Shown piece by piece: positions 8,264 to 58,812 of a stretch of 64,000 bases of DNA; positions within the stretch are counted from its first letter, which is position 1; each line of letters opens with the position of its first letter. The stretch is taken from NCBI RefSeq assembly GCF_000372645.1, contig NZ_APMP01000009.1:62001-126000 (forward strand). Direction: 5' to 3'. The DNA is from Caulobacter vibrioides OR37 (GTDB lineage Bacteria > Pseudomonadota > Alphaproteobacteria > Caulobacterales > Caulobacteraceae). Both the position numbers and the translations under genes were made by a program. The notes under the pieces are model-generated. The model saw only the letters and a program-made list of their open reading frames with translations, was not told where the DNA came from and did no database searches.

Positions 8264-8283
8264 ATAAAGGGTATACTGGTTAA
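8264..8283. promoter_or_regulatory. Putative GntR operator, site 1
   Basis: Core GTATAC at 8271-8276 in context AAAGGGTATACTGGTTA. It lies between the divergent UspA-like gene and the gntR region, 9 nt before the start of a 40-codon frame. It matches the island-wide consensus at the core, at +1 T and in the T-rich right arm. Confidence 0.5.
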
Positions 8284-8284
8284 A

Positions 8285-8407
8285 ATGGCCGAGTCCACCA
8301 GCCCAAGCGTCTATGAGGTTCACGGGACAGCGTCGATCAATGGGCTGGACAGCGCGCTCGACCGGTTAGCGCGCGGGCGATCGCCGCGCCTCCGCCGTCA
8401 CCGGTGA
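8285..8407 (+). CDS. Possible 40-aa small ORF directly after operator site 1
   Basis: ATG at 8285, stop at 8405-8407; the product starts MAESTSPSVYEVHGTASING and ends in an Arg-rich tail. No Shine-Dalgarno sequence is visible and the ATG is only 9 nt from a GTATAC core, so translation would have to be leaderless. The sequence is not recognised. It may be a remnant or chance. Confidence 0.15.
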   Translation: MAESTSPSVYEVHGTASINGLDSALDRLARGRSPRLRRHR

Positions 8408-8602
8408 GACGGCGATCGGCGGGAGCGCCCGATCGCCGAGACGCCAAAGCCTAATCGATCCCCTCAGGATCGCTCGGCCGAACTGGCGCGCCTTCCGACG
8501 CCCGCGTCACCTACCGGCCGCCAAGCTCTCTTTCATCCTCGGCGGACAGACGCTCGATTTTCTTCTCGGAATTTACCGCCCATGGTCTCCGCGCACGAAG
8601 AC

Positions 8603-8622
8603 ATCTTCAGTATACCCATTTG
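8603..8622. promoter_or_regulatory. Putative GntR operator, site 2 (upstream of gntR)
   Basis: Core GTATAC at 8610-8615, context ATCTTCAGTATACCCATTTG, about 157 nt upstream of the gntR ATG. The right arm lacks the usual +1 T. It would allow autoregulation of the regulator gene. Confidence 0.5.
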
Positions 8623-8771
8623 AACGCCTTACGCAGTTGGACGAGATGACAAAGCGGCCTAGGCGTGTCAAATTGTTTGACCCAGTAGTCTGAAGTCAAA
8701 TCCGAACCCAACGAGGCGAATAGCTCGGCGGGACAAACGTGCTCGGTGCTCGCAGGAAACCCATAGAGATT

Positions 8772-10235
8772 ATGCCGTCGTCCAACGTGGATTTCGTTCA
8801 GCCCCGAAAAAAGAAACTTGGTGAGCAGATCGCTCAACAGATCATCCGGCACATCATCGACAGCGGCTGGCCCCAGAATGAGAACCTTGGCACGGAGCGG
8901 GAGCTTCTTGAGCGCTACAATATTTCGCGCGCGACGTTCCGCGAGGCCGTAAGGCAGGTCGAGCGTCACGGCGCGGCCAAGATGCGACGCGGCGCCGGCG
9001 GCGGCTTGGTGGTAACCTCCCCGCCGCGTTTCGCCGCCCTGCGGGCGATGATCACCTATCTCGAATTCACTCGCGTTAGTTTCGCCGAACAGCATGAGGT
9101 GCGCGAACAGCTCGAACGCACCGCCGCGCGCTTGGCCGCGACCCGCGTCCAACCAGAGCAGGCCCAGCGACTCGTCGCCCTGGCCAAAACACTGGACGGG
9201 CTAACCGACCCCGCCGAAAACGTCTCGGGCAACATGGCCATCCGGGTCGCGATCGCCGAGACGACGGGCAATCCGTCGCTGGCCTTGTTCATCGAGACCT
9301 TGAACGGGGTGTTACGCGACATCCTGGTCGTGCTGGGCCTAGACGCTCGCTCCTTCCAAGAAGACCGCGACCAGTCGGTGCGCTTCAAGCATGAATTGAT
9401 CGCGGCGATCATCAGTCACGACAGCGAGGAGGCCCAACGCCTAGTGGACCGCGACGTCGCCCGCCGACTGCTCGCGATGTCCTCCGTAAGCGCATTGGGG
9501 CCCGCGCCGGCGGAAGCCCAGCACAGGATTCGCACGGTTCCCGACTGGTGGGAGGCCGCCGGCGCCGAGCGAAAGCTTAGCGAGCGGGTCGCCTTCGACA
9601 TCGTCAGGGACTTGGCCGCCGAGCGGTGGCAGGAGGGCCGCAACCTGGGCAATGAGGCCATTCTGCAGAAGCGTTACAAGGTCAGCCGCGCCGTGCTGCG
9701 CGAGGCTATTCGCCAGCTTGAGCTGCACGGCATCGTGCGTATGAAGAGCGGCGTCCAAGGCGGGCTGATCATCGGTCGGTTCGATCCGGCCTACACCGTC
9801 GAACTGGTCGAGACGTATCTGACCTCCACGAAGATCGCGATGATGCATCTGTGGGAGACCCAGTCGGTCCTTGAGATCTTCGCGGCCGAACGTCTGGCGC
9901 GGATCTGCACGCCTCGGGACGCCGCCGCCCTCAGGACCGCCGTCGACCGGCTAGACCATGCCTCCCCGGAGGCGTTCCTGGCCGTATCGACGCAGTTGCA
10001 TCGGGAGATCGCCGATCGCGCCGGCAATCGCGCGTTATCCCTGTTCGTGCACATCCTGCTGCACCATGGACTTCTGGCCTTGCCCCCCATCGACGCCCTG
10101 CGCATACCGTGGTTGATCAAGATGCACCGACGGCTTGTCGACGCGATCTGCGCGCATGATCAGACGGTCGCCCGTCGCGAGATGGCGACCCTATTCGAGC
10201 AGTCGCGGATCTGGGTCAGCGAAGTAGATCGTTGA
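8772..10235 (+). CDS. Tandem GntR/FCD transcriptional regulator (two complete HTH-FCD modules in one chain)
   Basis: 487 aa. The first winged-helix domain (about residues 12-75) has LGTERELLERYNISRATFRE and ends RRGAGGGLVV. It is followed by an FCD-like helical ligand domain (about 80-240). A linker leads to a second winged helix with LGNEAILQKRYKVSRAVLRE and KSGVQGGLII, then a second FCD domain with LHREIADRAGN. FCD-type GntR proteins normally have one module (about 230-250 aa) and dimerise, so this is an internal duplication acting as a pseudo-dimer. FadR-subfamily regulators bind GT-N2-AC palindromes and often sense acids or CoA esters; matching sites lie all over the island. ATG 8772 is chosen; a GTG at 8739 in frame is possible. 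Confidence 0.85.
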   Translation: MPSSNVDFVQPRKKKLGEQIAQQIIRHIIDSGWPQNENLGTERELLERYNISRATFREAVRQVERHGAAKMRRGAGGGLVVTSPPRFAALRAMITYLEFTRVSFAEQHEVREQLERTAARLAATRVQPEQAQRLVALAKTLDGLTDPAENVSGNMAIRVAIAETTGNPSLALFIETLNGVLRDILVVLGLDARSFQEDRDQSVRFKHELIAAIISHDSEEAQRLVDRDVARRLLAMSSVSALGPAPAEAQHRIRTVPDWWEAAGAERKLSERVAFDIVRDLAAERWQEGRNLGNEAILQKRYKVSRAVLREAIRQLELHGIVRMKSGVQGGLIIGRFDPAYTVELVETYLTSTKIAMMHLWETQSVLEIFAAERLARICTPRDAAALRTAVDRLDHASPEAFLAVSTQLHREIADRAGNRALSLFVHILLHHGLLALPPIDALRIPWLIKMHRRLVDAICAHDQTVARREMATLFEQSRIWVSEVDR

Positions 10236-10322: not shown

Positions 10323-10643
10323 TCAATCCTCTTCCGGCGCGATCACGACCCGCAGGCCATCGAGCGCCGCGGTCATCTCGATTTGGCAGCCCAGGCGCGA
10401 GGTCTCGCGTCGGTGGTTCGAGCTGTCGAGAAGCTCGCTTTCGAATTGGCCGGGCGCGCCCACGCGATCGATGAAGGCCGCATCGACGAAGACGTGACAT
10501 GTCGCGCATGAGCAGCTTCCGCCGCACAGAGCCAGCAATTCATTCAAGCCGCCGTCACGAATGATTTCCATGACGGTGAATCCCGGCTTGGCCGGCAGAC
10601 GATGCTGCCGGCCCCCTCGGTCCGTGACGACGAGCTCCGCCAT
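10323..10643 (-). CDS. [2Fe-2S] ferredoxin, adrenodoxin/putidaredoxin type
   Basis: 106 aa. The cluster ligands follow C-x5-C-x2-C in LCGGSCSCATCHVF, with the fourth Cys in RLGCQIEM, and the fold has the usual FTVMEIIRDGG helix before the loop. Such ferredoxins pass electrons from an NADH-dependent reductase to a bacterial class I P450. A P450 gene lies at 42.5 kb in the same putative regulon, but no ferredoxin reductase is visible in the window. Start ATG 10643 chosen because MAELVVTDRGG begins the fold. Downstream of the amidohydrolase in the same orientation (124 nt gap). Confidence 0.9.
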   Translation of the reverse strand: MAELVVTDRGGRQHRLPAKPGFTVMEIIRDGGLNELLALCGGSCSCATCHVFVDAAFIDRVGAPGQFESELLDSSNHRRETSRLGCQIEMTAALDGLRVVIAPEED

Positions 10644-10767
10644 GTTTTCTCCCCGCGGCGCGTTCGCCCGCGATCTATTTGGTTGAATGGCGCGGAAGCA
10701 CGCAGGGCGCCTCCGCCGACGCGAGTGACGCAAGAGCGCGAGTGGGTCGGCCGCTCGCGCTGTTGCG

Positions 10768-12084
10768 TCAGGCCCTTTCGAAGGTGTTGGATTGCGGGAA
10801 CAGACGCATGATGTCGCGCGCGCGCACCGTGCCTTGATGCTCGGCCGGCGGCTTCCCGCCGCCTTTCAGCGGCGTCAAGTCGACATGGCCTGCCTGAGCG
10901 CGCATGGCCCCGACGTTGCAGTTCTCACGCCCGAGGCGTTCCACCGCGTCCCACCTATAGGTGCGGGCGGCGTTCTGGAACGTGATCTTATCGATGTCGG
11001 CCTGCCCGATCGCGCCATTTTCGAACTCGCCGCTCCACAACTGTTCGGGCGTGTTCGGCCAAGTGATATCGGCGTGCGGATAGTCATTTTCGAACGTGAT
11101 GGTGTCCACGCCGATACGGTCGCGCATCGAAACCCCAACCTCATCCTGGATGAAGCACGAGATGAAGTGCTCGCGATAGATATCGGTCGGACGCTTACCC
11201 CGCCAGTTGTGGCGCATCCAAGGACCATGGTTCTTGCACACCAGCTCGGCCCGTTCCAGGCAGTAGGGCAACCAACCGATCCCGCCTTCCGACAGAATGA
11301 TCTTGAGGTTCGGGTAGTCATGGATGAAATCGGACCATAGGTATTCCGCGAAGACCGCCATCGAGGCCAGGCCGACCTTGGTCAGGAACGAGCCCAAGGG
11401 CGAGTCCATCGAAAGGTGCTCCGATCCCGTGGAGTCGCCGGCGCTGATGTGGATCGAGATCGGCATCCGCTCTTCGTCCAGCACCTTCCATAACGGACGC
11501 CAGTAGTCATCATGGATGGTCGGCATACCCAGTTGATGCGGCATTTGCGGGATCGTCACCGTCCGCGCCCCCTTGCGCGCCGTGCGCTTGACCTCGGCAA
11601 CGGCGGCGTCGATGTCGTAGAGGGGCAGGCTCACCATCGGGATCAGCCGATCCGGGGCGACTCCGCAGAATTCGTCGATGTGCCAGTCGTTGTAGGCGCG
11701 GATGATGGCCGTCGACAGATCCCGATCGGCGCCGGTCTGGAACATCTCCAAGGCAAAGCCCGGAAACGTCGGGAAGTTGACGCCGGCGAAGACGCCATTG
11801 ACGCTCATGTCGTCGACCCGGCTCTTGGGATCGTAGCACCCCTTGCGGATCTGCTCGAAGCGATTGGGTTCGAAACCAAGCTCCTCGCGCGGTCGTCCGG
11901 CCACGGCGTTTAGCGCGAAATTGACGCTAGGCTTGCCCTCGTAGACCCACTCGAACCCATCCTCCCGCTCGATGCACTTGGGCGCGCGGTCTTTCCATTT
12001 GGCCCCGATGTGCTGGTCGAAGATGTTCGGCCCTTCGACGATATGATCGTCGACGCTGAAAATCACCATGTCCTCTTTGCGCAT
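10768..12084 (-). CDS. Amidohydrolase family 2 protein (ACMSD-like TIM-barrel hydrolase/decarboxylase)
   Basis: 438 aa. It begins with the subfamily motif FSVDDHIVEGPNIFDQH, which supplies the N-terminal metal-site residues. ISIHISAGDS, KIILSEGGIGWLPYCLERAE and the C-terminal TFENDYPHADITWPNT follow, where the Asp is the conserved catalytic metal ligand. Members act as decarboxylases or C-C/C-N hydrolases on cyclic acids and are frequent next to acyl-CoA dehydrogenase clusters; the substrate is unknown. ATG 12084 has a GAGGAA Shine-Dalgarno; GTG at 12087 is also possible. An operator core lies 31 nt upstream. Confidence 0.85.
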   Translation of the reverse strand: MRKEDMVIFSVDDHIVEGPNIFDQHIGAKWKDRAPKCIEREDGFEWVYEGKPSVNFALNAVAGRPREELGFEPNRFEQIRKGCYDPKSRVDDMSVNGVFAGVNFPTFPGFALEMFQTGADRDLSTAIIRAYNDWHIDEFCGVAPDRLIPMVSLPLYDIDAAVAEVKRTARKGARTVTIPQMPHQLGMPTIHDDYWRPLWKVLDEERMPISIHISAGDSTGSEHLSMDSPLGSFLTKVGLASMAVFAEYLWSDFIHDYPNLKIILSEGGIGWLPYCLERAELVCKNHGPWMRHNWRGKRPTDIYREHFISCFIQDEVGVSMRDRIGVDTITFENDYPHADITWPNTPEQLWSGEFENGAIGQADIDKITFQNAARTYRWDAVERLGRENCNVGAMRAQAGHVDLTPLKGGGKPPAEHQGTVRARDIMRLFPQSNTFERA

Positions 12085-12107
12085 CACCCAGATTCCTCGC
12101 CTAATTT

Positions 12108-12127
12108 CTAATTAGTATACTCTTAAG
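12108..12127. promoter_or_regulatory. Putative GntR operator, site 3 (amidohydrolase-ferredoxin unit)
   Basis: Core GTATAC at 12115-12120 in CTAATTAGTATACTCTTAAG, 31 nt upstream of the amidohydrolase ATG. The left arm CTAATTA is identical to that of the site at 20393. Confidence 0.65.
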
Positions 12128-12137
12128 GCCTACGCAT

Positions 12138-12377
12138 TCAAGCACTCGCGATGCGGGGCTCTCCTGTCGCCCCGGCGGGAATCTCGACCTTCACGCCATC
12201 GACGCGAACCGCGTAGCCGCTCTCGGGGAACACCTGGGTGGGCCTGATGCCGCCGTGCTGACGGAGCCAACGCCCAACCCGCCAGGCGACGAAGGCGCTC
12301 GATCCGTGGGTGAACTCGACCGTAGCGTCTTCCTCGGCGTCATAACCTTGCTGGGCGAAGAGGGTCAGATCGATCAT
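12138..12377 (-). CDS. Small hypothetical protein, 79 aa
   Basis: Preceded by a good Shine-Dalgarno (AGGAGA) 16 nt after the crotonase gene, so almost certainly its operon partner. The sequence contains HGSSAFVAWRVGRWLRQHGG and ends VDGVKVEIPAGATGEPRIAS. There is no signal peptide, no membrane segment and no Cys. I do not recognise the family. It may be a small accessory subunit or chaperone of the neighbouring crotonase or amidohydrolase, but nothing in the sequence proves this. Confidence 0.6.
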   Translation of the reverse strand: MIDLTLFAQQGYDAEEDATVEFTHGSSAFVAWRVGRWLRQHGGIRPTQVFPESGYAVRVDGVKVEIPAGATGEPRIASA

Positions 12378-12393
12378 CGCGTCTCTCCTGAGG

Positions 12394-13227
12394 TCACTGG
12401 CCCGTGAATTCGGGTGCTTGCTTCGTGCCGAACAGCCGCATGGCCGCGAGGTTGTCCTTGGTGCGACCGGTGCGCGCGACGGCCCTGGCCTCGGCTTCGA
12501 AGGCGCTGTCGAGTTCGCCGCTTAAACCGTCGGCGAGCAGCCGCTTGATCTCCATCAAGGCGATGGTCGGCCCCGCCGCGAAGGCGGCCGCCCGCGCCAA
12601 GGCCGCTTCCTCGAAACCTTCCTCGGGCGCCACCTCGGCGATCAATCCAAGATGCAGCGCCTCGCGCGACGAAATGCGCTCGGCGCCCAGCAAAAGGCGT
12701 CGCGCGGCCTGCAGCCCCACCAGCCTGGGCAGGAGCCAGGTCAAACCGGAGTCCGAGGCCGAAGCCAGGTTCCGAAAAGGGGCCTGAAAATAGGCGGCTT
12801 CGGAAGCGATGATGTGATCCGCCGCCAGAGCCAGGCCTAGACCGATGCCAAGGCAGGGGCCGTTGACGGCGGCGATCACTGGCACCGGTAAGGCGTGGAG
12901 CCGGCGCAGCATAGGGTGGAAAGCCGTCTCCACCGCGTTGATCGCCGGCGCCTTGCCTTGCCCCCGCGTGACCGCTCGGGCTTCCGCCGCGAGGTTCGCG
13001 CCGGCGCAGAAGCCCCGCCCCTCGCCGCGGATCAGCAGCGCGCGAACCCCGCGTCGCGGCTTCGAAAGCTCCGTTAAGGCCTCGATGACGCCCAAGGCCA
13101 TGGCGGCGCTGAGCGCGTTCAACCGATCCGGATCATTCAGGGTCAGCGTGGCGAGGGCGGCGTCGAAACGCAGCGTCAAGCCCTCGTAAATGATGGTTTC
13201 TTCGACACGCTCCGTCGCGTCCGTCAT
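12394..13227 (-). CDS. Crotonase-fold enzyme, PaaG-like enoyl-CoA isomerase/hydratase
   Basis: 277 aa. The CoA/oxyanion motifs are GFCAGANLAA and NGPCLGIGLGLALAAD. The two Glu of classical enoyl-CoA hydratase are replaced by Gly and Phe, but SASDSGLTWLLPRLVG carries the Asp that PaaG-type isomerases use. The best reading is therefore a delta3-delta2 isomerase or ring-isomerising enzyme rather than a hydratase. ATG 13227 is preceded by AAAGGGGT; an upstream TTG gives only two more residues. First gene of a two-gene unit with an operator about 115 nt upstream. Confidence 0.85.
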   Translation of the reverse strand: MTDATERVEETIIYEGLTLRFDAALATLTLNDPDRLNALSAAMALGVIEALTELSKPRRGVRALLIRGEGRGFCAGANLAAEARAVTRGQGKAPAINAVETAFHPMLRRLHALPVPVIAAVNGPCLGIGLGLALAADHIIASEAAYFQAPFRNLASASDSGLTWLLPRLVGLQAARRLLLGAERISSREALHLGLIAEVAPEEGFEEAALARAAAFAAGPTIALMEIKRLLADGLSGELDSAFEAEARAVARTGRTKDNLAAMRLFGTKQAPEFTGQ

Positions 13228-13334
13228 GGCCAAACCCCTTTCATCGACATCCGCCGCCTACCTGGTGGGATCGCCGCCGACGGGCGGCATCCAGCGATTT
13301 CATCCTTCGCCTCTCGCTTGACGTGAGGATTTCC

Positions 13335-13354
13335 ATATCCAGTATACGGTTATA
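13335..13354. promoter_or_regulatory. Putative GntR operator, site 4 (crotonase unit)
   Basis: Core GTATAC at 13342-13347, context ATATCCAGTATACGGTTATA, about 115 nt upstream of the crotonase ATG. The sites at 13342 and 13449 flank the space between divergent genes. Confidence 0.55.
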
Positions 13355-13441
13355 GGCTAACGAGCGCTCTTACCAGGGACTTCCTTGGCGACGATGGCGC
13401 TCCGCCCGCACGCGTTGCAAAAAATACGGCGCTTGCCTCCG

Positions 13442-13461
13442 CAAACTAGTATACTCATATA
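13442..13461. promoter_or_regulatory. Putative GntR operator, site 5 (small secreted protein)
   Basis: Core GTATAC at 13449-13454, context CAAACTAGTATACTCATATA, 63 nt upstream of the ATG at 13517. Confidence 0.6.
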
Positions 13462-13516
13462 GGCCGCATTGGCTCGGGCCGCCTGGAGCGACCGAGCGCG
13501 CCAAAGAGAGTTCGTC

Positions 13517-13810
13517 ATGCGCCTCATCTCCATCGCCGCCACGCTTCTCGTCCTGACCTCGCCCGCGATGGCGCAGACCGCTTCGCCCCAAGCGCGGACC
13601 GCGACACCCCAGGCGCCGATCCGCGCCGGGCAGATCCTGCGCGACGTCAACAAGGTCCGCTTGGGCCCCATCAACACGGTCAAGGCCGACGGGTCGGTCG
13701 TCATCATCTTCGACTCCCACTTCAAGACGATACCGGCCGACAAGGTCAACGTGATCAACGGGCAGCCGACGACGTCGCTGACTCGCGGCGAAGTCTTCAA
13801 ACTCGACTGA
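13517..13810 (+). CDS. Small secreted protein, PRC-barrel-like, 97 aa
   Basis: A clear Sec signal peptide (MRLISIAATLLVLTSPAMAQ) is followed by a Thr/Pro/Ala linker. The compact beta-rich domain has IRAGQILRDVNKVRLGPI, ADGSVVIIFDSHFKTIPADK and a short helix TSLTRGEVFKL. The strand pattern resembles PRC-barrel or small periplasmic domains; this is a fold guess only. An AGTATACT operator precedes it, so it appears to be induced with the catabolic genes and may bind the hydrophobic substrate or a metal in the periplasm. Start chosen from the signal peptide and the AGAGAG ribosome site. Confidence 0.65.
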   Translation: MRLISIAATLLVLTSPAMAQTASPQARTATPQAPIRAGQILRDVNKVRLGPINTVKADGSVVIIFDSHFKTIPADKVNVINGQPTTSLTRGEVFKLD

Positions 13811-13918
13811 CCGAAGCGGGATCTCCCTGCGCGTTGTCGGATGCCCGCTCGAGGAATTCCTCGAGCGCCGCGACGCGGATATGCGTGGCGATGGAATGAC
13901 GCTTTCGCGACTTGCGCT

Positions 13919-14503
13919 TCAGAAGCCCATCAGGGCCAGCACCTCGCGCCGTGAACGCTCGTCTTCCCGAAAGACGCCCATCATGCGACTGGTCTTCATC
14001 GCCACGCCGGGGGTGCGTACGCCACGGCCGCTCATGCAGGCGTGACTCGCCTCTATCACCACGGCGACGCCAAGAGGCTTGAGATTTTCCCAGAGGCAAT
14101 CGGCGATCTCGGCCGTCAGACGCTCCTGGACCTGCAGGCGCCTAGCGTAGCCATGCAATACGCGCGCCAATTTGGAAATGCCAACGACATGGTTACGCGG
14201 CAGATAGGCGATATGCGCCTTGCCGATGATCGGCGCCATGTGATGCTCGCAGTGCGACTGGAACGGGATGTCCTTGAGCAGGACGATGTCATCGTAGCCA
14301 CCGACCTCCTCGAAAACGCGCGAAAGATGTTCGCCCGGATCCTCGTCATAACCTTCGCAATACTCCTTCCAGGCCCGCGCCACACGTAATGGAGTGTCGA
14401 TGAGACCTTCGCGCTCGGGGTCGTCTCCGGTCCAGCGGATGATCGTCCGAATGGCCTCCTGCACGTCTTCCGGAACATCGGGCTTCTTGGCTTTATTGCT
14501 CAT
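13919..14503 (-). CDS. folE: GTP cyclohydrolase I, second copy inside the island
   Basis: 194 aa from ATG 14503, which follows a GGGAGAA ribosome site. All type I landmarks are present: [25 protein letters not shown] with zinc Cys and His, GISKLARVLHGYARRLQVQE, and ASHACMSGRGV. It is clearly divergent from the copy at 1925 (different N-terminus, C-terminal MMGVFREDERSRREVLALMGF), so it is not a recent duplicate. Its product feeds folate or pterin synthesis. No operator site is seen directly upstream. Why a pterin gene sits between a secreted protein and scoB is unclear. Confidence 0.9.
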   Translation of the reverse strand: MSNKAKKPDVPEDVQEAIRTIIRWTGDDPEREGLIDTPLRVARAWKEYCEGYDEDPGEHLSRVFEEVGGYDDIVLLKDIPFQSHCEHHMAPIIGKAHIAYLPRNHVVGISKLARVLHGYARRLQVQERLTAEIADCLWENLKPLGVAVVIEASHACMSGRGVRTPGVAMKTSRMMGVFREDERSRREVLALMGF

Positions 14504-14700
14504 CGAGTTCTCCCATCTCGGGCGTCCGCCGCTCGTCAACACGACCGATGCGAATAGCGCTCGCCAGCCGATGACGCTCCCGCGCTCGAAATCGGCCGTG
14601 ATCTCGTCTCGCCGAACGGGCGATCTCAAAGATCAATCGCGGCGCGGCCGCGCTTGCTGACCTGTCGCTTCGCGTCCCCGAGACATTCGCTCTTTCGATG

Positions 14701-15372
14701 TCAGTCCGTCAGGTATCTTGCGGTCGTCGCCGCCCGAACCCGCGCCGCGCTCACGCCGGGAGCCGTTTCGAGCAGGCGAAAGGGCGCGCTTCGGTCCGGG
14801 CGCTGGAATACCGCCAGGTCGGTGATGATCATGTCGACGACGTTGACGCCGGTGAGCGGCAGCGTGCAGGCGGGAATGAACTTGGCTCCGCCATCCTTCG
14901 CCAAGTGGTCCATCACCACGATGATCCGCCGGGCGCCGGCGACCAGGTCCATGGCGCCTCCCATGCCCTTGACCATTTTCCCCGGGATCATCCAGTTGGC
15001 GATGTCGCCGGTCTCGGAGACCTCCATCGCGCCGAGGATCGACAGGTCCATATGGCCGCCCCGGATCATCGCGAAACTGTCGGCGGAAGAGACGTAGGCC
15101 GTATGGTCAAGCTCGGTGATGGTTTGTTTGCCGGCGTTGATCACGTCGGCGTCGACCTCATCTTCCCGGGGATAGGGCCCAAGGCCCAGCATGCCGTTCT
15201 CGGACTGCAAGACCACCGCGACGCCGGACGGAATGCAATTGGCCACCAGCGTGGGAATGCCGATGCCGAGATTGACGTAAAACCCGTCACGCAGCTCCCG
15301 AGCCGCGCGAGCGGCCATGCCTTCGCGGGTCCAGCCCTCCGTCGTCGCCGACATGCCTGCCTCCAAGCTCAT
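14701..15372 (-). CDS. scoB: 3-oxoacid CoA-transferase, subunit B
   Basis: 223 aa. Transfers CoA from succinyl-CoA to a 3-oxoacid, or the reverse, in complex with subunit A. The family I signature [15 protein letters not shown] and the catalytic Glu motif [13 protein letters not shown] are intact, and [18 protein letters not shown] follows. The ATG at 15372 overlaps the scoA stop (ATGA), giving coupled translation. An intact SENG motif argues for true CoA transfer rather than the hydrolase role of IpdB-like homologues. Confidence 0.92.
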
Positions 15373-16070: not shown

Positions 16071-16139
16071 CACACTTCCGGCGATGCTGAGTGAAGGTCG
16101 TGAAGGCGCCGCGGGGACAATTGCTTATTCCCATTTCCC

Positions 16140-16159
16140 GCAAAGAGTCTACTAGAATG
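16140..16159. promoter_or_regulatory. Putative GntR operator, site 6 (divergent scoAB / methyltransferase-SDR)
   Basis: Variant core GTCTAC at 16147-16152 in GAGTCTACTAGAATGG. One base differs from the consensus, but the site sits in the only promoter space of two divergent units. Confidence 0.4.
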
Positions 16160-16273
16160 GGGTGGTGATCGCGCCCTGGCGACATACTGACGGAGGAACC
16201 CCTGGACCGCCACGCCACGCCGGTCAGCCATGTCCGAGACGCGGACGAAGCCAGCCGGCGCCACCATGAAGCG

Positions 16274-17664: not shown

Positions 17665-17717
17665 CTTGGCTTTCGGATCTTCCTTCGTCTCGTAGGGTGG
17701 ACACTCGACGCCGAATT

Positions 17718-17737: not shown

Positions 17738-17766
17738 CCTAAGAACATCGACGTAGGGAGAGAGAC

Positions 17767-47600: not shown

Positions 47601-47626
47601 AGGTGCTCGGCAATCACCTCGCGGCT

Positions 47627-50664: not shown

Positions 50665-50721
50665 CTGGGCGCTCCTGCTTGTTTGGGGCGACGCGCGGGC
50701 GGATCAGCGCGGGGTAGGTCA

Positions 50722-51690: not shown

Positions 51691-51747
51691 GAGCCCGCTC
51701 CTTGGTGCGGGCTAACGGACCGTCGCTTCGCCATTGTCGCCTCCCGT

Positions 51748-51767
51748 AAGAATAGTGCGCTTGGTTT
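51748..51767. promoter_or_regulatory. Putative GntR operator, site 15 (flavoprotein unit), degenerate
   Basis: Variant core GTGCGC at 51755-51760, context AAGAATAGTGCGCTTGGTTT, 65 nt upstream of the flavoprotein ATG. Only the arms and outer core bases match. Confidence 0.3.
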
Positions 51768-51842
51768 TTAAGACGCGCCGAGGTGACGGACGCCGAGTTC
51801 GCACGCGGACCAAGGCCGTCCCGAACCGGAACCCAAAGTCCG

Positions 51843-52955
51843 CTAGGCTTTCAGGCCCAGTCCGGCCCTCGCCACGATGCTGGTCATGATTTCCGTGGTG
51901 CCGCCGCCGAGGGATTCTTCCGTGGTTTGTCGCCAGAGCAGATGGGTTGGCGCGTCCTGGGTCAGCGCCATTGGCGCGCCAAAATCCATGGCCGCGCGGG
52001 CGATGGCCTGGATCGCGTCCGTGCACGCGCGCTTGTTGGCCGCCGCCGCGACACTCGCGAGGACGGGATCGTGGTTGGCGGTCAGGACGCGGAAGGCGTG
52101 AGCCTGACATTCCAGCACTCCGACGGCCAACTCCGCCAGCTTCTCGCGAACGACGGGATCGCGATCGAGGCCTTGGGTCAGCGCCCAGTCGCGCACGCTT
52201 TCATAGTCGGCCAGTACACGTTTGGGCGGAAACTGGACGTGACGCTCGTCGGCCAGGCTGGCGTTCATCATTTTCCAGGCGCCGTTCTCCGGGCCGATCC
52301 GTTGATCCTCGGGGACTTCGACATCGTCGAAGAAGATCTCGCAAAAGATGTTGCCGCTCATCTTCGCCATGGGTCGGATGCGTAGGTTCGGCGACTTGAG
52401 GTCCACGATCAGCAGGGACAGGCCCGCGGCGCGGCTATTGACCTCGCCGGTCCGGCAAAGGAGCCAAAGATAGTCGGCCTCTTGGGCCGCGGAGCTCCAG
52501 ATCTTCGAACCGTTGACGATATATTTCCCGTCCCGCAATTCGGCCCGGGTGCGAAGTCCGGCGAGGTCCGATCCCGCCCCCGGCTCCGAATAGCCCAGAG
52601 AGAACATCAACTGCCCAGTGCGGATGGGCTCAAGCCACCGCGCCTTCTGCGCGCGGGTTCCGAAGCGAATAATGGTTTTGGCGACGATGCCGGCGGACAG
52701 GGGCGGCCGCGCGACCCGTGCGTAGGCCATCTCGTCCCAAAGCAGAAATTCGAAGATCGGCGGCAGGCCTTGACCGCCATCTTCGATCGGCCACCCGAGC
52801 GACAGCCAATTGCGAGCGCCCAGAGCCTGATAGAAGGCGCGAAGACGGTCGAAGTCCTCGCCATGCAGGTACTGGTCCAGACCGCGCCAGTCTTCCAGAA
52901 AGGCCAGCACCTCACCTTGAAAGGCGCGTTCTTGATCCGAATAGCCTAGTTGCAC
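51843..52955 (-). CDS. Acyl-CoA dehydrogenase, long catalytic-type subunit (pair 4)
   Basis: 370 aa. FSLGYSEPGAGSDLAGLRTR and NGSKIWSSAAQEADYLWLL are standard. The candidate base Glu is in ASLADERHVQFP and the C-terminus reads LGGGTTEIMTSIVARAGLGL. The start is a GTG 10 nt inside the upstream gene. Last gene of the seven-gene unit that begins with the DUF35 protein at 58528. Confidence 0.88.
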   Translation of the reverse strand: MQLGYSDQERAFQGEVLAFLEDWRGLDQYLHGEDFDRLRAFYQALGARNWLSLGWPIEDGGQGLPPIFEFLLWDEMAYARVARPPLSAGIVAKTIIRFGTRAQKARWLEPIRTGQLMFSLGYSEPGAGSDLAGLRTRAELRDGKYIVNGSKIWSSAAQEADYLWLLCRTGEVNSRAAGLSLLIVDLKSPNLRIRPMAKMSGNIFCEIFFDDVEVPEDQRIGPENGAWKMMNASLADERHVQFPPKRVLADYESVRDWALTQGLDRDPVVREKLAELAVGVLECQAHAFRVLTANHDPVLASVAAAANKRACTDAIQAIARAAMDFGAPMALTQDAPTHLLWRQTTEESLGGGTTEIMTSIVARAGLGLKA

Positions 52956-53923
52956 TGTCGCCCCTCCCGCCAGAGCGCCGGATCCAGCAGGCGCGACACG
53001 TCCAGCGATAGGCTCGCGCGCAACCCGCGGCTAGACGGCGCCAAAGTCGCGTATTCCTGGATGCGCCTGGAAAGCCATCCGACGGGCCCATCATCGAGAA
53101 CGCCATAGGCCCCTAGCGTCTGATGCGCGGCGAACCCCGCCTTCAGCGCCGCGCGGGTGGACGACAGGCGCGCCGCGCCGGCCAGGTCCGCCGCGTCGGC
53201 CCGTCCCGCGTCCAACGCCATCGCCGCTGCCCGCGTCATAAGCTGAGCGGCTTCCAGGCCGATCAAGGACTCCGCCAGGGGGAAGGCTACGGCCTGGAAC
53301 TCGCCGATCGGACGACCGAACTGGCTTCGTGTCCGGGCGTGCTCGGCGGCGAGGTCGATGAAGAAACGGCCAGCGCCGACGCCGTAGGCCGATATGGCCA
53401 TGTGATAGCGCGCCAACACATCCCCGACCTCGCCCGCCAGAGGCTCCGCGCGCTCGACCAACCCCGCGCGGGTCGCGCCCAGGGTCTCGATAGGGCCGAC
53501 CAGACGGGCTTGGCTAAGACCATCCCCGTCGATCAGGAAGAGATCGTCGGCCACGGCGGCCCAGGCGGTCAGGACGTCGCCGCCCAGGGTGGGAACCCGC
53601 TCGCCGCCGGCCCAAGCCGGCTGGCGCGCATCCGATAGCCCCATCACGGCCACCGATTGAGCCAGCGGCCCCGGAAAGCCGTGATAGCCGAGCACCTCCA
53701 GGCCGACGCACGTCAGCAGCATGGCGCTGTCGCCGGGGGTCGCGGCGATCTCCAAGAGCCCGAGCTCGGCCATGGATCGCCACAAATCGCGAGAGAAGTT
53801 CACGGCTTGCCGGTCGTGCGGCTCGGCGCCGAGGTTTCGCGCGCAATAGCGCGTCGCCGCGTCGGCGAAGTCGCGCGCCTCGACCGGCAAGGTGAGCGAA
53901 AGCGATGGGTTCTCCGGCGTCAT
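52946..53923 (-). CDS. Acyl-CoA dehydrogenase, short non-catalytic-type subunit (pair 4)
   Basis: 325 aa. SQFGRPIGEFQAVAFPLAESLIGLEAAQL and a shortened C-terminal block with AHQTLGAYGVLDDGPVGWLS are seen; the HGGIG motif of other partners is degenerate here. The helix G region (MAISAYGVGAGRFFID) has no Glu. ATG 53923 overlaps the upstream gene stop (ATGA), and the stop overlaps the GTG of the long partner. Confidence 0.82.
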   Translation of the reverse strand: MTPENPSLSLTLPVEARDFADAATRYCARNLGAEPHDRQAVNFSRDLWRSMAELGLLEIAATPGDSAMLLTCVGLEVLGYHGFPGPLAQSVAVMGLSDARQPAWAGGERVPTLGGDVLTAWAAVADDLFLIDGDGLSQARLVGPIETLGATRAGLVERAEPLAGEVGDVLARYHMAISAYGVGAGRFFIDLAAEHARTRSQFGRPIGEFQAVAFPLAESLIGLEAAQLMTRAAAMALDAGRADAADLAGAARLSSTRAALKAGFAAHQTLGAYGVLDDGPVGWLSRRIQEYATLAPSSRGLRASLSLDVSRLLDPALWREGRQCN

Positions 53924-54867
53924 GCTCGGCCCTCGGCCCACATCAAGGACGCGACGGACGAAGCCTGCTCGCGCGGGCCGCCTAGCTCGCCCTGCAGCAA
54001 GCGCAATCTAAACGTCCAGAAGTGCAAGCTGTGCTCTAGCGTCATCCCCAAGGCGCCATTGAACTGGTGGCTATCGTAATTGACCGATGCGATCGCCTGC
54101 TGGGCGTAGAGCGCCGCCAGCGACGCGTCGAGTTCCAGCCCGCTCCAGGCGGCCTTCAGAGCCAGCCAATAGGCCCCGCGGCATTTCTGAACATCTGCGG
54201 CCAGGCGGTGTTGCACCGCCTGGAACGATCCGACAGGTCGGCCGAAGACCCGGCGATCCTTGACATAGACGGTCGTGAAGTCGATCGCGCTCTGCATCGC
54301 CGCGGCGATCTCCAGCGAAAGACCAACGCGCCAGAGCCGGCGCAACGGTTCCACCGCCTCCGCGCCCAGACGGCGAGCGCCGGCGAGATCGGGCATCGCC
54401 GCGAGCCGCCCCAGCGGGTAGGCGAACATGCTGGCCACGGGCTCGACCTTAAGATCGTCGGTCGACAGCACGGCGACGTCGTCGCCCAAGTCCACGATCA
54501 GCGTCTTGGCCCGATCAAGAAAACGAACGGCTCGCGTGAGATCCGCCAGACGTGCGACGGCGATCGGGCGCGGGAGCGCTTGGCCGGTCAGCAACGGACC
54601 GATCAGCGCGGACCCGGCGATTTCCAGGACCAATGGAGAACGACCGACTTCGTAGACGAGCAGCGCCGCTTCGAGCGCGCCATAGTCTCCGCTCAGAGCG
54701 ACGTTGAAGAATTCTCCGGCCGCGAGCGCCTCGTCCAGCTCATCGGCGTAGAAATATTCGACCGGCTTTAACGTTGGGCCTGTGCGCGGAACCTCCATGT
54801 GCTGGGAGACGATCTGCTGGATGACCTCCTGGAGCGCGCGTTGGTCGTCATTCAGGTCTAGGTCCAT
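53920..54867 (-). CDS. Acyl-CoA dehydrogenase, short non-catalytic-type subunit (pair 5)
   Basis: 315 aa. Starts MDLDLNDDQRALQEVIQQIV. Contains VYVKDRRVFGRPVGSFQAVQHRLAADVQK and ends with SHQFNGALGMTLEHSLHFWT, a variant of the HGGIGFTWEHD block with His replaced. The helix G position (LRRLWRVGLSLEIAAAM) lacks the Glu-Arg pair. The ATG is 2 nt after the stop of the long partner at 54870. Confidence 0.84.
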   Translation of the reverse strand: MDLDLNDDQRALQEVIQQIVSQHMEVPRTGPTLKPVEYFYADELDEALAAGEFFNVALSGDYGALEAALLVYEVGRSPLVLEIAGSALIGPLLTGQALPRPIAVARLADLTRAVRFLDRAKTLIVDLGDDVAVLSTDDLKVEPVASMFAYPLGRLAAMPDLAGARRLGAEAVEPLRRLWRVGLSLEIAAAMQSAIDFTTVYVKDRRVFGRPVGSFQAVQHRLAADVQKCRGAYWLALKAAWSGLELDASLAALYAQQAIASVNYDSHQFNGALGMTLEHSLHFWTFRLRLLQGELGGPREQASSVASLMWAEGRA

Positions 54868-54869
54868 GG

Positions 54870-56021
54870 TCAGGCCCCGCGCGGCAGGCCGAGATACCGG
54901 CCGGAAATCATGTTGAGCTGGACTTCGGCCGCCCCCGCGGCGATGCCCGAGGTGATGGCGGCGGTGAAGTGGGCGTGGAGCATACCGTCGCCGCCCTTGA
55001 CGAGCAGGTCGGGCAGATAGGTCGAGCCGAGGTTGGCGACGGCGTGGTCTGCCTGGATCATGGCGAAGCGCGCCACATAGGTGTCGGCGCTGGGCGGCTT
55101 GTCCTTGGCGCGGCCGTCGATCACCACATAGGTCAACAGGCGCGCGGCCTCCACCATGGCCAGTGCCGAGGCGCACTCGCCCCGCACCACCGGATCCTCG
55201 AAGAGGCCCCGCGCCCTCAGCAGCGCGACGATGTGGTCGAGCGTGCGACGCGAATATTCGTAACGCGCCGCGCCTATGCGCTCGTAGTGGAGGATGGTGG
55301 TGACGATATCCCACCCCTGACCCTCCTCGCCCAGTCGGGAATCTTCCGGCGCGACGGCGTCGGTGAAGAAAACCTCGTTGAAGTCGTGCGGGCTATGGAT
55401 GGCGGGGATCGGCCGAACCACGACGCCGGGCGTGTCCATCGGCACGATAAAGCAAGTCACGCCGCTCTTGCCGCCCCCATCGAGCCGCGCCAGCAGGAAG
55501 CAGACGTCGGCGCGCGACGCATAGGATGTCCAGACCTTCGAGCCGTTGATCCGATAGCCGCCCCCGGGCAAGAGCTCGGCGCGGGTGGACATGTTGGCCA
55601 AGTCCGTACCAGCTTCCGGCTCGGAAAAGCCCTGACACCAAAGCACCCGCCCTTCCGCGATCGGACGCAGGTACCTCTGCTTCTGGGCCTCGGTGCCGAA
55701 CTTCATGATCGCCGGCCCGGCCCAGTTGGCTCCGAGGTAAAGGGACGAGCGGGGCTCGCCGTTACTCCACATCTCCTCGCTAACGATGATCTGCTGCCAG
55801 GCGCTGGCGTTCTTGCCGCCATACGCTTCCGGCCAGTGGCGGACCACCAGGTCGCGCGCCGCCAATTCGCGATTGAACTCGCGCGCGTTGGCCATCAGTT
55901 CCGGCCCGGCGGGACCGTCATAGGCGAAATCATTCCACCAGTTCTCGTGCAGCTTGGCCTCCAGCAGAGCCACCAGCTCCGCGCGATAAGCCCTCTCGGC
56001 GTCGTTCCAAGAAAAATCCAA
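54870..56021 (-). CDS. Acyl-CoA dehydrogenase, long catalytic-type subunit (pair 5)
   Basis: 383 aa. WCQGFSEPEAGTDLANMSTR and NGSKVWTSYASRADVCFLL are standard, and the candidate base Glu is in TILHYERIGAARYEY. The C-terminus GIAAGAAEVQLNMISGRYLG is the divergent GGT-type end. The start is a TTG preceded by GGGAGGT; no ATG precedes the fold. Located 42 nt after the MaoC-like gene. Confidence 0.87.
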   Translation of the reverse strand: MDFSWNDAERAYRAELVALLEAKLHENWWNDFAYDGPAGPELMANAREFNRELAARDLVVRHWPEAYGGKNASAWQQIIVSEEMWSNGEPRSSLYLGANWAGPAIMKFGTEAQKQRYLRPIAEGRVLWCQGFSEPEAGTDLANMSTRAELLPGGGYRINGSKVWTSYASRADVCFLLARLDGGGKSGVTCFIVPMDTPGVVVRPIPAIHSPHDFNEVFFTDAVAPEDSRLGEEGQGWDIVTTILHYERIGAARYEYSRRTLDHIVALLRARGLFEDPVVRGECASALAMVEAARLLTYVVIDGRAKDKPPSADTYVARFAMIQADHAVANLGSTYLPDLLVKGGDGMLHAHFTAAITSGIAAGAAEVQLNMISGRYLGLPRGA

Positions 56022-56063
56022 AGCGTTACCTCCCGCCTTCTCGCGCCGGCCGCAGCCCGACCG

Positions 56064-56924
56064 TCAGGACGCCGCGGGGCGGAAATCGGCGCGCCCGTTG
56101 CTAATCGCCACCACTTCGCGTTCGGCCACCCTGACGCGGAACGCCGCTCGTCCGGGCTCCTCGCGCCAGATATCCGTGACAAGGGTTTCTCCCGGAAACA
56201 CCGGCGTGGAAAACCGGACGTCCAGGCGCGCGAGACGGTCCGGATCGCCATCGCACAACGCCTTGACGATCATCCGTCCGGCGACGCCATAGCTGCAGAG
56301 CCCATGCAGGATCGGGCGGGGGAACCCGGCCGCGGCCGCCATGACCGGGTCAGCGTGCAGGGGATTGAAATCGCCCGACAGCCTGTAGATCAGGGCTTGA
56401 TCGTCGCGGGTCTTGAAGGTCAGGCTCAGATCCGGTTCGCGGTCCGGAGTCGGGTGCGGCGCGGGTTGCCCCTCGCTGGAGCCGCCAAAGCCGCCGTCGG
56501 CGCGCAGAAAGGCGCTCGAGCGCACGGTCGCTAGCAGCGCGCCGTCGGCCTGATCCCGCAATTCACGCTTGAGCAGCAGCACCGCGCCCTTGGCGCCCTT
56601 GTCGAACAGGCCATCGACGGAGGCCTGTCCCACGACCGTCGCCTCGGCCGGCAGCGGCCTATGGATTTCTAGCCTCTGCTCGCCGTGCAGAACCTGGGCG
56701 AAGGTGATGCCCGCGCGCGGGTCGTTCATCCACATCCGCTCGCCCGCGAGCACGACGGCCATGGTCGGCAGCGCCTTGAGCCCCCGCTCATAAACCAGCG
56801 GCAAGTCGCTTTCCTCGGCGCCCGCGCCGACGCCAAGCGCATAGAGGATCGCGCGCGGCGCGCCATAGTGTTCGACCACGGGATCGAACCGCCAGTTCAG
56901 GACGGCTTCGGCGTTGACGGGCAT
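56064..56924 (-). CDS. MaoC-like enoyl-CoA hydratase 2 (MFE-2 type)
   Basis: 286 aa double hotdog. The hydratase-2 motif YRLSGDFNPLHADPVMAAAA carries the catalytic Asp and His, and FPRPILHGLCSYGVAGRMIV follows. N-terminal half begins DPVVEHYGAPRAILYALGVG as in eukaryotic MFE-2. Adds water to a trans-2-enoyl-CoA giving the (R)-3-hydroxyacyl-CoA, which the MFE-2-like SDR at 26354 could oxidise. Start ATG 56924 with GGAGGA. Confidence 0.92.
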   Translation of the reverse strand: MPVNAEAVLNWRFDPVVEHYGAPRAILYALGVGAGAEESDLPLVYERGLKALPTMAVVLAGERMWMNDPRAGITFAQVLHGEQRLEIHRPLPAEATVVGQASVDGLFDKGAKGAVLLLKRELRDQADGALLATVRSSAFLRADGGFGGSSEGQPAPHPTPDREPDLSLTFKTRDDQALIYRLSGDFNPLHADPVMAAAAGFPRPILHGLCSYGVAGRMIVKALCDGDPDRLARLDVRFSTPVFPGETLVTDIWREEPGRAAFRVRVAEREVVAISNGRADFRPAAS

Positions 56925-56970
56925 TTTTCCTCCGAAAAGACGACGCGCGCCGGCGCGGCTGCTCGCCGCG

Positions 56971-58113
56971 TCAGTTGGCTTTTTCGAGAATGTGCACGGC
57001 CGCGACCGTGCCTAGGCCCACGACGTGGGCCAGCCCCAGCCGCGCGCCTTCGACCTGGCGCCGATCGGCTTTGCCGCGCAGGTGGGTGCTGATCTCGTAG
57101 AGATTGGCGATCCCGGTGGCGGCGATCGGATGGCCCTTCGACAACAGGCCGCCCGACACGTTGACCGGGACGCGCCCGCCCAGGGCCGTCTCGCCGGTGT
57201 CGATCATGCGACCGGCTTCACCCACGCCGCAAAGCTTGAGGTTCTCGTAGTGGAGCAGCTCGGCGGTGGCGAAACAGTCATGCAACTCGACCAAATCGAC
57301 CTCGTCGGGCCCCACGCCCGCCTGCTCGTAGGCCGCCTCTGCGGCCAGGCGGGTGGCGGCGTTGATGTCCCACATCGCTAGATTCCGCGGCGTGTAGGGA
57401 TCGGACGCCAGGGCCGAGGCGCGGATTTTCACCGCCTGATCCATCAGTCCGCGGCGTCGGACCTCGTCGCCGCTCATCAAAACCGCCGCGGCCGCGCCGT
57501 CGACATTCACCGAGCACATCAACTTGGTGTTGGGATAGGCGATCATCTCCGCGCCCATCACCTCCTCCAGAGGCGTTTCCTTTTGGTACATCGCCTTGGG
57601 ATTCAAGGTTGAATGGTGGTGGTTCTTCACGGAGACCTTGGCGAATTGCTCGAAGGTCGCCCCGTGCTCGTGGGCATAGGCTTGACCGGCTTCGGCGAAC
57701 ACCGCCGGCATGGACGCCGACCCCAGAATCCCCTCGGGATTGAGGCCCGCGGTTTCGCCGCCGCCCAACAAGCCGCGCGGCATGACCTCGGCTCCGACGG
57801 CGAGCGTCACCTCGGCCGCGCCCGCCTTGATCAGGTACATCGCCTCGCGAAACGCGGTAGCGCCCGTGGCGCAGGCGTTCTTGACATTGGCGGCTGGAAT
57901 GCCGGTCTGACCGATCTGCTTCTGGATGTCCTGGGCGACCATGCCCACGACATCGAACTGGTTGCCGCTATAAAGGGCCTGGATATCGTGGATGGTCACC
58001 CCGGCCTCGTCCATGGCCAGCAGCGCGGCCTGGGCGCCGAGTTCGCCGGGCGTCGCGCCCTGGAATCGGCCGAATTTCAGCATGTCGATGCCGACGATGT
58101 AGACGTCTCTCAT
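56971..58113 (-). CDS. SCP-x/Ltp-type thiolase or retro-aldolase
   Basis: 380 aa. The nucleophilic Cys is present in VKNACATGATAFREA and the His in GGLLSKGHPIAATG; the last motif is GLGTVAAVHIL, without the second Cys of classical thiolases, as in SCP2-thiolases. Immediately preceded by a DUF35 gene. In actinobacterial sterol breakdown such a pair (Ltp2 with a DUF35 domain) cleaves the final side chain by retro-aldol reaction; SCP2-like thiolysis is the alternative. With the next MaoC and dehydrogenases this makes a complete beta-oxidation set. Confidence 0.88.
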   Translation of the reverse strand: MRDVYIVGIDMLKFGRFQGATPGELGAQAALLAMDEAGVTIHDIQALYSGNQFDVVGMVAQDIQKQIGQTGIPAANVKNACATGATAFREAMYLIKAGAAEVTLAVGAEVMPRGLLGGGETAGLNPEGILGSASMPAVFAEAGQAYAHEHGATFEQFAKVSVKNHHHSTLNPKAMYQKETPLEEVMGAEMIAYPNTKLMCSVNVDGAAAAVLMSGDEVRRRGLMDQAVKIRASALASDPYTPRNLAMWDINAATRLAAEAAYEQAGVGPDEVDLVELHDCFATAELLHYENLKLCGVGEAGRMIDTGETALGGRVPVNVSGGLLSKGHPIAATGIANLYEISTHLRGKADRRQVEGARLGLAHVVGLGTVAAVHILEKAN

Positions 58114-58126
58114 GGCAGGGCTCCGC

Positions 58127-58528
58127 CTAGGCCGCTTCGAAGAAATAGCTGAGGTAACGGTCGCCCTTCGCGTCGACGCCGGCCTCGTCGAACACCAGTC
58201 GAACCGGCATGCCGAAGCGTATCGCTTCGGGGTCGAAGGCCACGCCGCGTAGGTTTCCCTTGAGGACAGTCCCGTCCTCCATGTCGACGACGGCCGAAAT
58301 GAACGGCGTGGTCACGCCTGGAAACGAGCGGTGGACGATCGAATAGCTGTGCAGCACGCCGCGGTCGGCGACGCGAACGGGCGCCAAGCCCTCGCGCGCG
58401 CCGCACGACGGGCAGGCCAGGGAGGGCCGAGTCAGCATCGCCTCGCATCGCGAACAGCGGCGCGCCTGGACATGCGCGCCTTCGTCCTCGATCACCACCC
58501 AAGGCGCCACGCCGCGATACTCGACCAT
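58127..58528 (-). CDS. DUF35/OB-fold protein with zinc ribbon, thiolase partner
   Basis: 133 aa. An N-terminal rubredoxin-like zinc ribbon (RRCSRCEAMLTRPSLACPSC, two CxxC pairs) is followed by an OB fold (VLHSYSIVHRSFPGVTTPF, ISAVVDMEDGTVLKGNL). These proteins dock to SCP2-type thiolases or aldolases and guide CoA substrates. First gene of a leftward seven-gene unit; a GGAGGTGAGG ribosome site precedes the ATG, and an operator lies 28 nt upstream. Confidence 0.9.
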   Translation of the reverse strand: MVEYRGVAPWVVIEDEGAHVQARRCSRCEAMLTRPSLACPSCGAREGLAPVRVADRGVLHSYSIVHRSFPGVTTPFISAVVDMEDGTVLKGNLRGVAFDPEAIRFGMPVRLVFDEAGVDAKGDRYLSYFFEAA

Positions 58529-58548
58529 ATCCTCACCTCCCTCGTTAT

Positions 58549-58568
58549 CAATTCAGTGTACTAGTTTT
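58549..58568. promoter_or_regulatory. Putative GntR operator, site 16 (DUF35-thiolase-ACAD unit)
   Basis: Variant core GTGTAC at 58556-58561, context CAATTCAGTGTACTAGTTTT, 28 nt upstream of the DUF35 ATG. The right arm TAGTTTT is identical to site 8. Confidence 0.6.
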
Positions 58569-58792
58569 AAGGCCAAGTCCAGCCTCTGACGCGCCTTAAA
58601 TTGGCGAGGCGAAGGCTGGATTGGCGAGAAGTCGTATCGAAGACTGACCACGACCGTGCAGGGTGCGCCGGGATTGCCGAGGGCCATTCCGATCTGATCA
58701 CCGCCAGTCACGCGCGAGGGCGGGCTCAAGGCGATGGCGCCGGCGTCGTAGGCCTCGTCGAACAGGTTGACCGCCAGGTTCGCCCTCGACAA

Positions 58793-58812
58793 ATAAATAG
58801 TACACTGTTAAT
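58793..58812. promoter_or_regulatory. Putative GntR operator, site 17 (aldehyde/alcohol dehydrogenase unit)
   Basis: Variant core GTACAC at 58800-58805, context ATAAATAGTACACTGTTAAT, 66 nt upstream of the aldehyde dehydrogenase ATG. Confidence 0.5.

Follow-up and report, generated by a model that had tools for sequence, protein, structure and literature searches.

The 64,000-nucleotide stretch of the Caulobacter vibrioides OR37 genome analysed here (contig NZ_APMP01000009.1, positions 62,001 to 126,000; hereafter the window) holds a 53-kb block of breakdown genes and, spread along it, 17 copies of a palindrome centred on GTATAC or a variant. From the sequence, we consider it very likely that these palindromes are operators of the island's own regulator, a FadR-type protein carrying two modules in one chain, which is predicted to repress most of the island's transcription units until a pathway intermediate releases it. 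An island-wide regulon had been proposed in an initial annotation of this DNA, and the proposal is now supported by genome-wide counts and by the occurrence of the same motif before the matching genes of Azospirillum sp. RU38E, which shares both island and regulator.

A palindrome concentrated in one island

All 17 cores were found again at their reported positions when the sequence was reread, and all of them fit the consensus palindrome AANNAGTRYACTNNTT. Counts per position agreed with the earlier description of A/T-rich arms, a core of GTATAC or a variant, and a T following it. The core is exactly GTATAC in 10 of the 17 sites and a variant in the other 7; its general form is GT-N2-AC, from which the sites at 42317 (GTATCC) and 51755 (GTGCGC) depart. 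T stands directly after the core in 15 sites. Counting back from the core, A occupies the fifth and fourth positions in 15 and 14 of the 17 sites, and T the mirrored positions after it in 12 and 12 (plus strand, unsymmetrised), so that both arms are conserved. The island, the regulator gene and the sites are as follows, with no strand assigned to the island body or the operators; bits are scores of the position weight matrix (PWM) described below, and nt stands for nucleotides.

10323..61444: catabolic island body, with CoA ligases, acyl-CoA dehydrogenases, hydratases, thiolases, CoA-transferase, P450 and TonB receptor
8739..10235, + strand: tandem GntR-FCD x2 regulator, proposed binder of all sites; 498 amino acids from GTG 8739, ATG 8772 possible
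8266..8281: putative operator, core 8271, 75 nt before stress-protein gene 8199 (-), the next site being 339 nt away; 1 mismatch, 26.2 bits
8605..8620: putative operator, core 8610, before the regulator gene; 17.9 bits, proposed autoregulation
12110..12125: putative operator, core 12115, before amidohydrolase 12084 (-); 1 mismatch, 27.9 bits
13337..13352: putative operator, core 13342, before enoyl-CoA hydratase 13227 (-); 19.0 bits
13444..13459: putative operator, core 13449, the second before 13227 (-); 1 mismatch, 26.9 bits
16142..16157: putative operator, core 16147 (GTCTAC), between divergent 16070 (-, 3-oxoacid CoA-transferase) and 16274 (+); 10.9 bits
17720..17735: putative operator, core 17725, before PaaK-like ligase 17767 (+), 39 nt to start; 22.5 bits
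20388..20403: putative operator, core 20393, before acyl-CoA dehydrogenase 20417 (+), within a run of co-directed genes; 0 mismatches, 32.2 bits
29947..29962: putative operator, core 29952, before GMC oxidoreductase 29833 (-), overlapping the 3' end of gene 29939-31057; 1 mismatch, 21.1 bits
35435..35450: putative operator, core 35440, before the TonB receptor unit 35404 (-); 0 mismatches, 29.9 bits
35475..35490: putative operator, core 35480, the second before 35404 (-), also paired in Azospirillum; 1 mismatch
42312..42327: putative operator, core 42317, before MaoC-like 42280 (-), 40 nt to start; 1 mismatch
42435..42450: putative operator, core 42440, before P450 42479 (+); 11.7 bits
47583..47598: putative operator, core 47588, before acyl-CoA ligase 47553 (-), aligned with an Azospirillum site; 1 mismatch, 28.2 bits
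51750..51765: putative operator, the weakest, core 51755 (GTGCGC), before NMO-family gene 51690 (-); 9.3 bits
58551..58566: putative operator, core 58556, before the OB-fold/thiolase/acyl-CoA dehydrogenase unit 58528 (-); 1 mismatch, 25.6 bits
58795..58810: putative operator, core 58800, before aldehyde dehydrogenase 58871 (+); 1 mismatch, 29.3 bits

The window makes up 1.4% of the 4.43-Mb genome (70 contigs), and the motif is heavily concentrated in it. GTATAC occurs at 50 places in the genome and 11 times in the window, where 1.45 occurrences are expected; the copy at 18245, within a coding gene and flanked by GC-rich arms, was rejected as a site. Exact AGTATACT is found at four window places (12115, 13449, 20393 and 35440) against a chance expectation of 0.04, and at only one further place in the genome (C19:73722), which lies inside open reading frames (ORFs) and was likewise discarded. 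With at most one mismatch, AANNAGTRYACTNNTT has 12 matches genome-wide, all on the window's own contig (C9) and 11 of them in the window. Equal frequency across the genome, named beforehand as the outcome that would refute a regulon, was not what was seen. The twelfth (C9:129935, window +67943), 3.9 kb past the right edge and between two converging called genes, is probably a chance match. Exactly two mismatches are found at 23 further places, just 2 of them in the window, and this class is therefore mostly background.

A PWM trained on the 12 near-exact sites (11 of the 17 and the one beyond the right window edge) gave leave-one-out scores of 13.5-31.1 bits and scored the six untrained sites at 9.3-22.5 bits, the lowest being 51755 (9.3), 16147 (10.9) and 42440 (11.7 bits). 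At 8 bits or more it recovered 17 matches in the window, the same 17 as first listed, whereas 420 kb of the genome outside it (from eight other contigs and the 20 kb to its left) yielded 6, none above 10.6 bits. At 12 bits or more the counts were 14 and 0, and ten first-order Markov copies of the window gave a mean of 0.4 such matches. In 36 other genomes of the genus, the pattern matched 24 times in total, 0-3 times per genome, with no two matches close together. Four of the same-genus genomes (G066, G356, G924 and G925), which carry no close tandem regulator, each have a conserved ACTCAGTATACTGCTT (or complement) at one place, perhaps an operator of another FadR-type protein.

The placement of the sites is also as expected of operators. 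Genes in the window were called with a simple ORF caller, units were defined as gene runs split at gaps of more than 60 nt, and ORF 13517-13810 was left out as spurious from the counts of units and non-coding DNA. By these calls, non-coding DNA amounts to 7.8% of the island and contains 16 of the 17 site centres, the exception (29952) being within the last bases of the upstream gene. The palindrome had been described as standing ahead of nearly every unit; this holds for 14 of the 18 called units, which have at least one site, whereas four have none. The latter lie ~90-200 nt behind a same-strand gene and may be read through from it. About half of the sites do lie close to start codons as had been stated, with 8 of 17 centres 21-40 nt before a called start, and the flanks are free of sites, none of 8 bits or more being present in 1-8200, in 61500-64000 or in the 20 kb leftward. 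The spacings of paired sites, taken from the site coordinates, have no common helical phase.

The shared island in Azospirillum sp. RU38E

Because the pattern was derived from the window, counts in its own genome are partly circular. Unlike these, the clustering of the motif in Azospirillum sp. RU38E is an independent test. When GTDB genome contigs were scanned for the regulator, one locus came up, in this organism, 58% identical over residues 23-494 of 498. In the 6.1-Mb RU38E genome, the window-derived pattern matches exactly at three places, each of them on the 72-kb contig with the regulator, and with at most one mismatch at 10 places, 8 of which are on that contig. RU38E probably belongs to another family, since its regulator was absent from the 390-genome family search that would have caught it.

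Much of the island is shared as well. In a translated search, 40 of the 45 called island ORFs, the regulator included, had a relative on the RU38E contig at 50% identity or more and at least 80% coverage, with identities of up to 89%, and 37 window genes had reciprocal best matches there. The five unmatched ORFs comprise one probable false ORF, the GTP cyclohydrolase gene, and three genes with relatives of only 27-43% on the contig. Identity to the Azospirillum counterpart is as low as 43% for the PaaK-like ligase (17767-19071) and 37% for the P450 (42479-43717), and both differ from their counterparts in position; thus, these two steps may have been exchanged while the rest was kept. An rve integrase-core (transposase-like) gene (L043:204-707, Azospirillum contig C16) lies at the end of the 72-kb island contig.

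The 19 Azospirillum sites chosen by the PWM have the same two arms, and 12 of the 14 site-bearing window units have a counterpart site before the same Azospirillum gene or unit. Two of the 12 are loose matches: for the regulator gene the site is 326 nt off, and for hydratase 13227 a different gene leads the unit. Distances from site centre to start codon (window versus Azospirillum, in nt) are 21 vs 21 for acyl-CoA dehydrogenase 20417, where the site lies inside a co-directed run in both organisms, 40 vs 41 for MaoC-like 42280, 80 vs 77 for CoA-transferase 16070, 39/79 vs 33/96 for TonB receptor 35404, 38 vs 28 for ligase 47553 and 31 vs 25/45 (to the ortholog's ATG) for OB-fold gene 58528. 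They differ more for NMO-family gene 51690 (68 vs 23, the Azospirillum site scoring 24.0 bits), aldehyde dehydrogenase 58871 (68 vs 186, called starts) and the P450 42479 (36 vs 86). Around the variant core GTCTAC at 16147, a 17-base block is identical in Azospirillum, whereas the flanks differ. For the site 39 nt before the PaaK-like ligase 17767, Azospirillum has one 40 nt before its major facilitator superfamily (MFS) gene and further ones before its PaaK-like gene. Overall, 17 of 30 Azospirillum units have a site and 20 of 22 sites are non-coding, but both counts are unreliable because false calls hid genes on the opposite strand (e.g., 38357-39955 + and 48801-53027 +).

Among the remaining or hidden genes of the contig (enzymes, transport, integrase core), no second regulator was recognised, although some small or uncalled genes could have escaped the scans.

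The tandem regulator and the weighing of alternatives

The island's first gene had been annotated as a GntR regulator of the FadR subfamily. The subfamily stands, but the protein has two GntR-FCD modules rather than a single one: Pfam finds GntR in two stretches (PF00392, 66.2 bits) and FCD in two stretches, and AlphaFold (pLDDT 90.7, pTM 0.90) places two complete modules in a high-confidence fold. The modules, at about 24-257 and 277-498, each follow the FadR plan of an N-terminal GntR winged helix and a C-terminal all-helical FCD domain, and together they depart from the usual layout of one module per chain. The GT-Nx-AC operator form of FadR-type proteins is matched by the GT-N2-AC consensus of the 17 candidate sites, which we infer to be the regulator's operators. 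In an alignment of 46 sequences (the query and 45 hand-picked tandem relatives), the helix arginines R64 and R317, one per module, are invariant and match Arg45 of Atu1419, which contacts guanine (PMC7797058; this and the other papers are cited here from excerpts). By eye, the columns at the VanR-type three-histidine metal site seem to hold R169/K217/D239 in the N-terminal module and H421/H463/L485 in the C-terminal one.

Tandem FadR-like proteins gave 107 matches including the query, most of them 450-530 amino acids long. About two dozen form a close group at 45-60% identity, and the remainder are mostly at 26-46%. At close identity the regulator was found in 1 of 398 genomes sampled from the order, 1 of 390 from the family, 1 of 385 from the class and 1 of 398 from the phylum, each time the window's own; two other genomes in the family search had relatives of only 32-35%. 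A plasmid search returned only distant relatives (78 records, all below 60%). A search with the amidohydrolase gave two matches on contigs equal in length (88,065 and 4,914 bases) to contigs with regulator matches, which suggests that the linkage of amidohydrolase and regulator exists in other carriers too. No fused or tandem FadR protein was described in the literature that we searched, by titles and the beginnings of abstracts, a coverage that leaves out most subscription papers; nor was the tandem form found in the excerpted PMC4494728, in which the word tandem does not appear.

In the mechanism that we favour, the fused regulator would sit on the island operators, with each winged helix-turn-helix reading one half-site, so that in this model one chain would occupy one palindrome as a single-chain pseudo-dimer; two such heads in one high-confidence chain would fit this arrangement. 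Repression is the natural reading because a site at 21-40 nt from a start codon would overlap the transcription start, and a regulator bound there would block transcription. Through the site at 8610 the protein would repress its own gene. The effector may be a carboxylate or acyl-CoA of the island pathway, sensed mainly by the C-terminal FCD domain; such an intermediate would free the DNA of regulator, and the units, the regulator gene included, would be switched on together.

A more detailed picture that joins these elements is tentative, and we would put it at rather less than an even chance. The protein would be a pre-dimerised, asymmetric FadR repressor, one chain bringing both heads to each palindrome. 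Sensing would fall to the C-terminal FCD domain, the N-terminal one having R/K/D in place of the metal/ligand histidines and serving only to structure the dimer. With its four heads, a dimer of chains could loop paired operators (spacings of 40, 107, 123 and 244), and the regulator, 17 operators and ~40 genes would move between families as a self-contained regulon.

Several observations weigh against the tandem regulator as the repressor of all 17 sites. Three of the sites score below 12 bits, and the regulator's own site lies 126-159 nt upstream and carries less weight than the rest. For amidohydrolase 12084 and GMC oxidoreductase 29833, Azospirillum offers no counterpart of the site. Some genomes of the same order match the pattern often (24 genomes, with 1-18 matches each among the matches listed), and one genome (G1060) has two distant tandem regulators, at 32-35% identity, without clustering of the motif. 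The 20-kb surroundings of the distant tandem regulators in G1059 and G1060 gave 0, 1 and 5 PWM matches of 8 bits or more; those five are on G1060 contig C20 and reach 8.1-19.9 bits, but no clustering of the pattern in that genome corresponds to them. Finally, the OR37 genome has nine further FCD places, one of them on the same contig 6.9 kb past the window (C9:132916-133293), and another FadR-type protein could therefore be the binder.

This last point is the basis of what we regard as the strongest, though still unlikely, alternative, in which another FadR-type protein, of the ordinary kind with one module and encoded at some other place in the genome, has the palindromes as its operators. 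Several proteins of the subfamily do bind GT/AC palindromes with 2-nt spacing (PMC4494728), and one of the nine other FCD places is near the island. However, the motif and the tandem regulator travel together, both being on one 72-kb Azospirillum contig with no other regulator recognised there, and the motif cluster is absent from the 36 same-genus genomes.

It is considerably less probable that an alternative or housekeeping sigma factor reads the sites as -10 elements of promoters. TATACT and TACACT resemble -10 boxes, 8 of the 17 sites are 21-40 nt from starts, and of 28 sites tested here (16 of the 17) and in Azospirillum (12 of 22), 9 follow a -35-like hexamer (at least 4 of 6), compared with 14% of 2000 random positions. 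Nevertheless, core promoters would not be restricted to one island, several sites have cores that make poor -10 boxes (GTGCAC, GTGTAC), and the conservation of both arms in the unsymmetrised counts (A in 15 and 14, T in 12 and 12 of 17) speaks for a palindrome. Together, the hexamer counts and the poor cores speak neither for nor against the earlier suggestion that TATACT may double as a -10 element. That the clustering reflects chance, or a bias of A/T-rich intergenic DNA in the island, is scarcely credible. Chance, at about one match per 64 kb, could account for weak sites such as 51755, but the excess over the Markov copies (14 vs 0.4), the four copies of AGTATACT where 0.04 are expected and the independent replication in Azospirillum all stand against it, and the explanation is already contradicted by the genome counts of AANNAGTRYACTNNTT, the Azospirillum counts and the PWM comparison.

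Island content and comparison with known systems

The genes under the proposed regulator cover uptake and breakdown. Uptake is represented by a TonB receptor and an MFS gene, oxidation by P450, GMC and dehydrogenase genes, and CoA activation by four ligases and one ATP-grasp synthetase; beta-oxidation-like steps have ten acyl-CoA dehydrogenase genes (five adjacent pairs), hydratases, thiolases and a 3-oxoacid CoA-transferase. As judged from gene content, a bulky terpenoid- or steroid-like acid would fit as the substrate. Hints of steroid or terpenoid side-chain chemistry are the P450, nearest CYP125 among solved chains with CYP142 also high, an SCP2-type thiolase, a ChsH2-type OB fold, and IpdE2- and PimC/D-like dehydrogenase matches, all below the cut-offs. 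Against a steroid, the CoA-transferase pair matches 3-oxoacid CoA-transferases, and HsaD, the sole steroid-ring enzyme searched genome-wide, had no match above cut-off. Searches with acyl-CoA dehydrogenase 52949 and hydratase 12397 named no special substrate; a literature search on steroid degradation in Novosphingobium gave no link to the island, and one joining Azospirillum, steroid and GntR found nothing.

Inside the island, GTP cyclohydrolase I (FolE; 13919-14629, - strand) is odd cargo for a catabolic island, and no relative of it was found on the Azospirillum contig. A tRNA-Ser (CGA) gene (7535-7624) lies ~640 bp ahead of the first operator, with the stress-protein gene in between. As an attachment site it was rejected: its last 16 nt occur once in the 75.7 kb examined, and repeats within 7000-9000 told nothing. 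To the right of the island (62089-64000 and C9:126001-137698) are an ECF-type sigma/FecR pair, two TonB-receptor-like genes, a GH2 hydrolase with a malectin domain, a single-module FCD regulator and a LacI regulator, a stretch looking like a separate sugar-uptake locus.

The proposed regulon is large and sharply bounded, could be tested with one protein and a few DNA fragments, and ties its motif to a barely described two-module form of FadR. That sites, regulator and genes have been kept together in what are probably two bacterial families points to a catabolic island with its own complete wiring, which, because it carries that wiring, would need no host regulator for switching on in a new cell.

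GT-N2-AC palindromes had been put forward as the operator form of the FadR subfamily, and PMC4494728 and PMC7797058 support this. GntR, HpxS, HypR, MdcY, PrpR and UxuR, with 2-nt spacing, likewise have a GT-N2-AC core in an A/T-rich palindrome (PMC4494728). Escherichia coli NanR, also a GntR-type repressor (PMC8012715), is the best NCBIfam match of the regulator (106.9 bits, below the cut-off of 260; best stretch 23-240), but NanR reads direct repeats of GGTATA (PMC8012715) whereas the repeats here are inverted. Closer is Atu1419 of Agrobacterium fabrum (VanR group, FadR subfamily), whose operator is ATGTATACAT: it too is a GntR-FCD protein with a GTATAC-centred palindrome that locally represses a catabolic region including itself, with two sites in its own promoter region (PMC7797058). 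Atu1419, however, has one module per chain, forms a tetramer of four chains and represses three genes (PMC7797058), while the protein described here has two modules per chain and 17 sites over ~50 kb, and the arms of the palindromes differ. Other tandem FadR-like proteins have the same two-module layout, with both helix arginines retained throughout the alignment. Local regulons of FadR-type proteins with a GTATAC palindrome are thus of an already known kind; what is new is a regulator fused from two modules and a regulon of such size and mobility.

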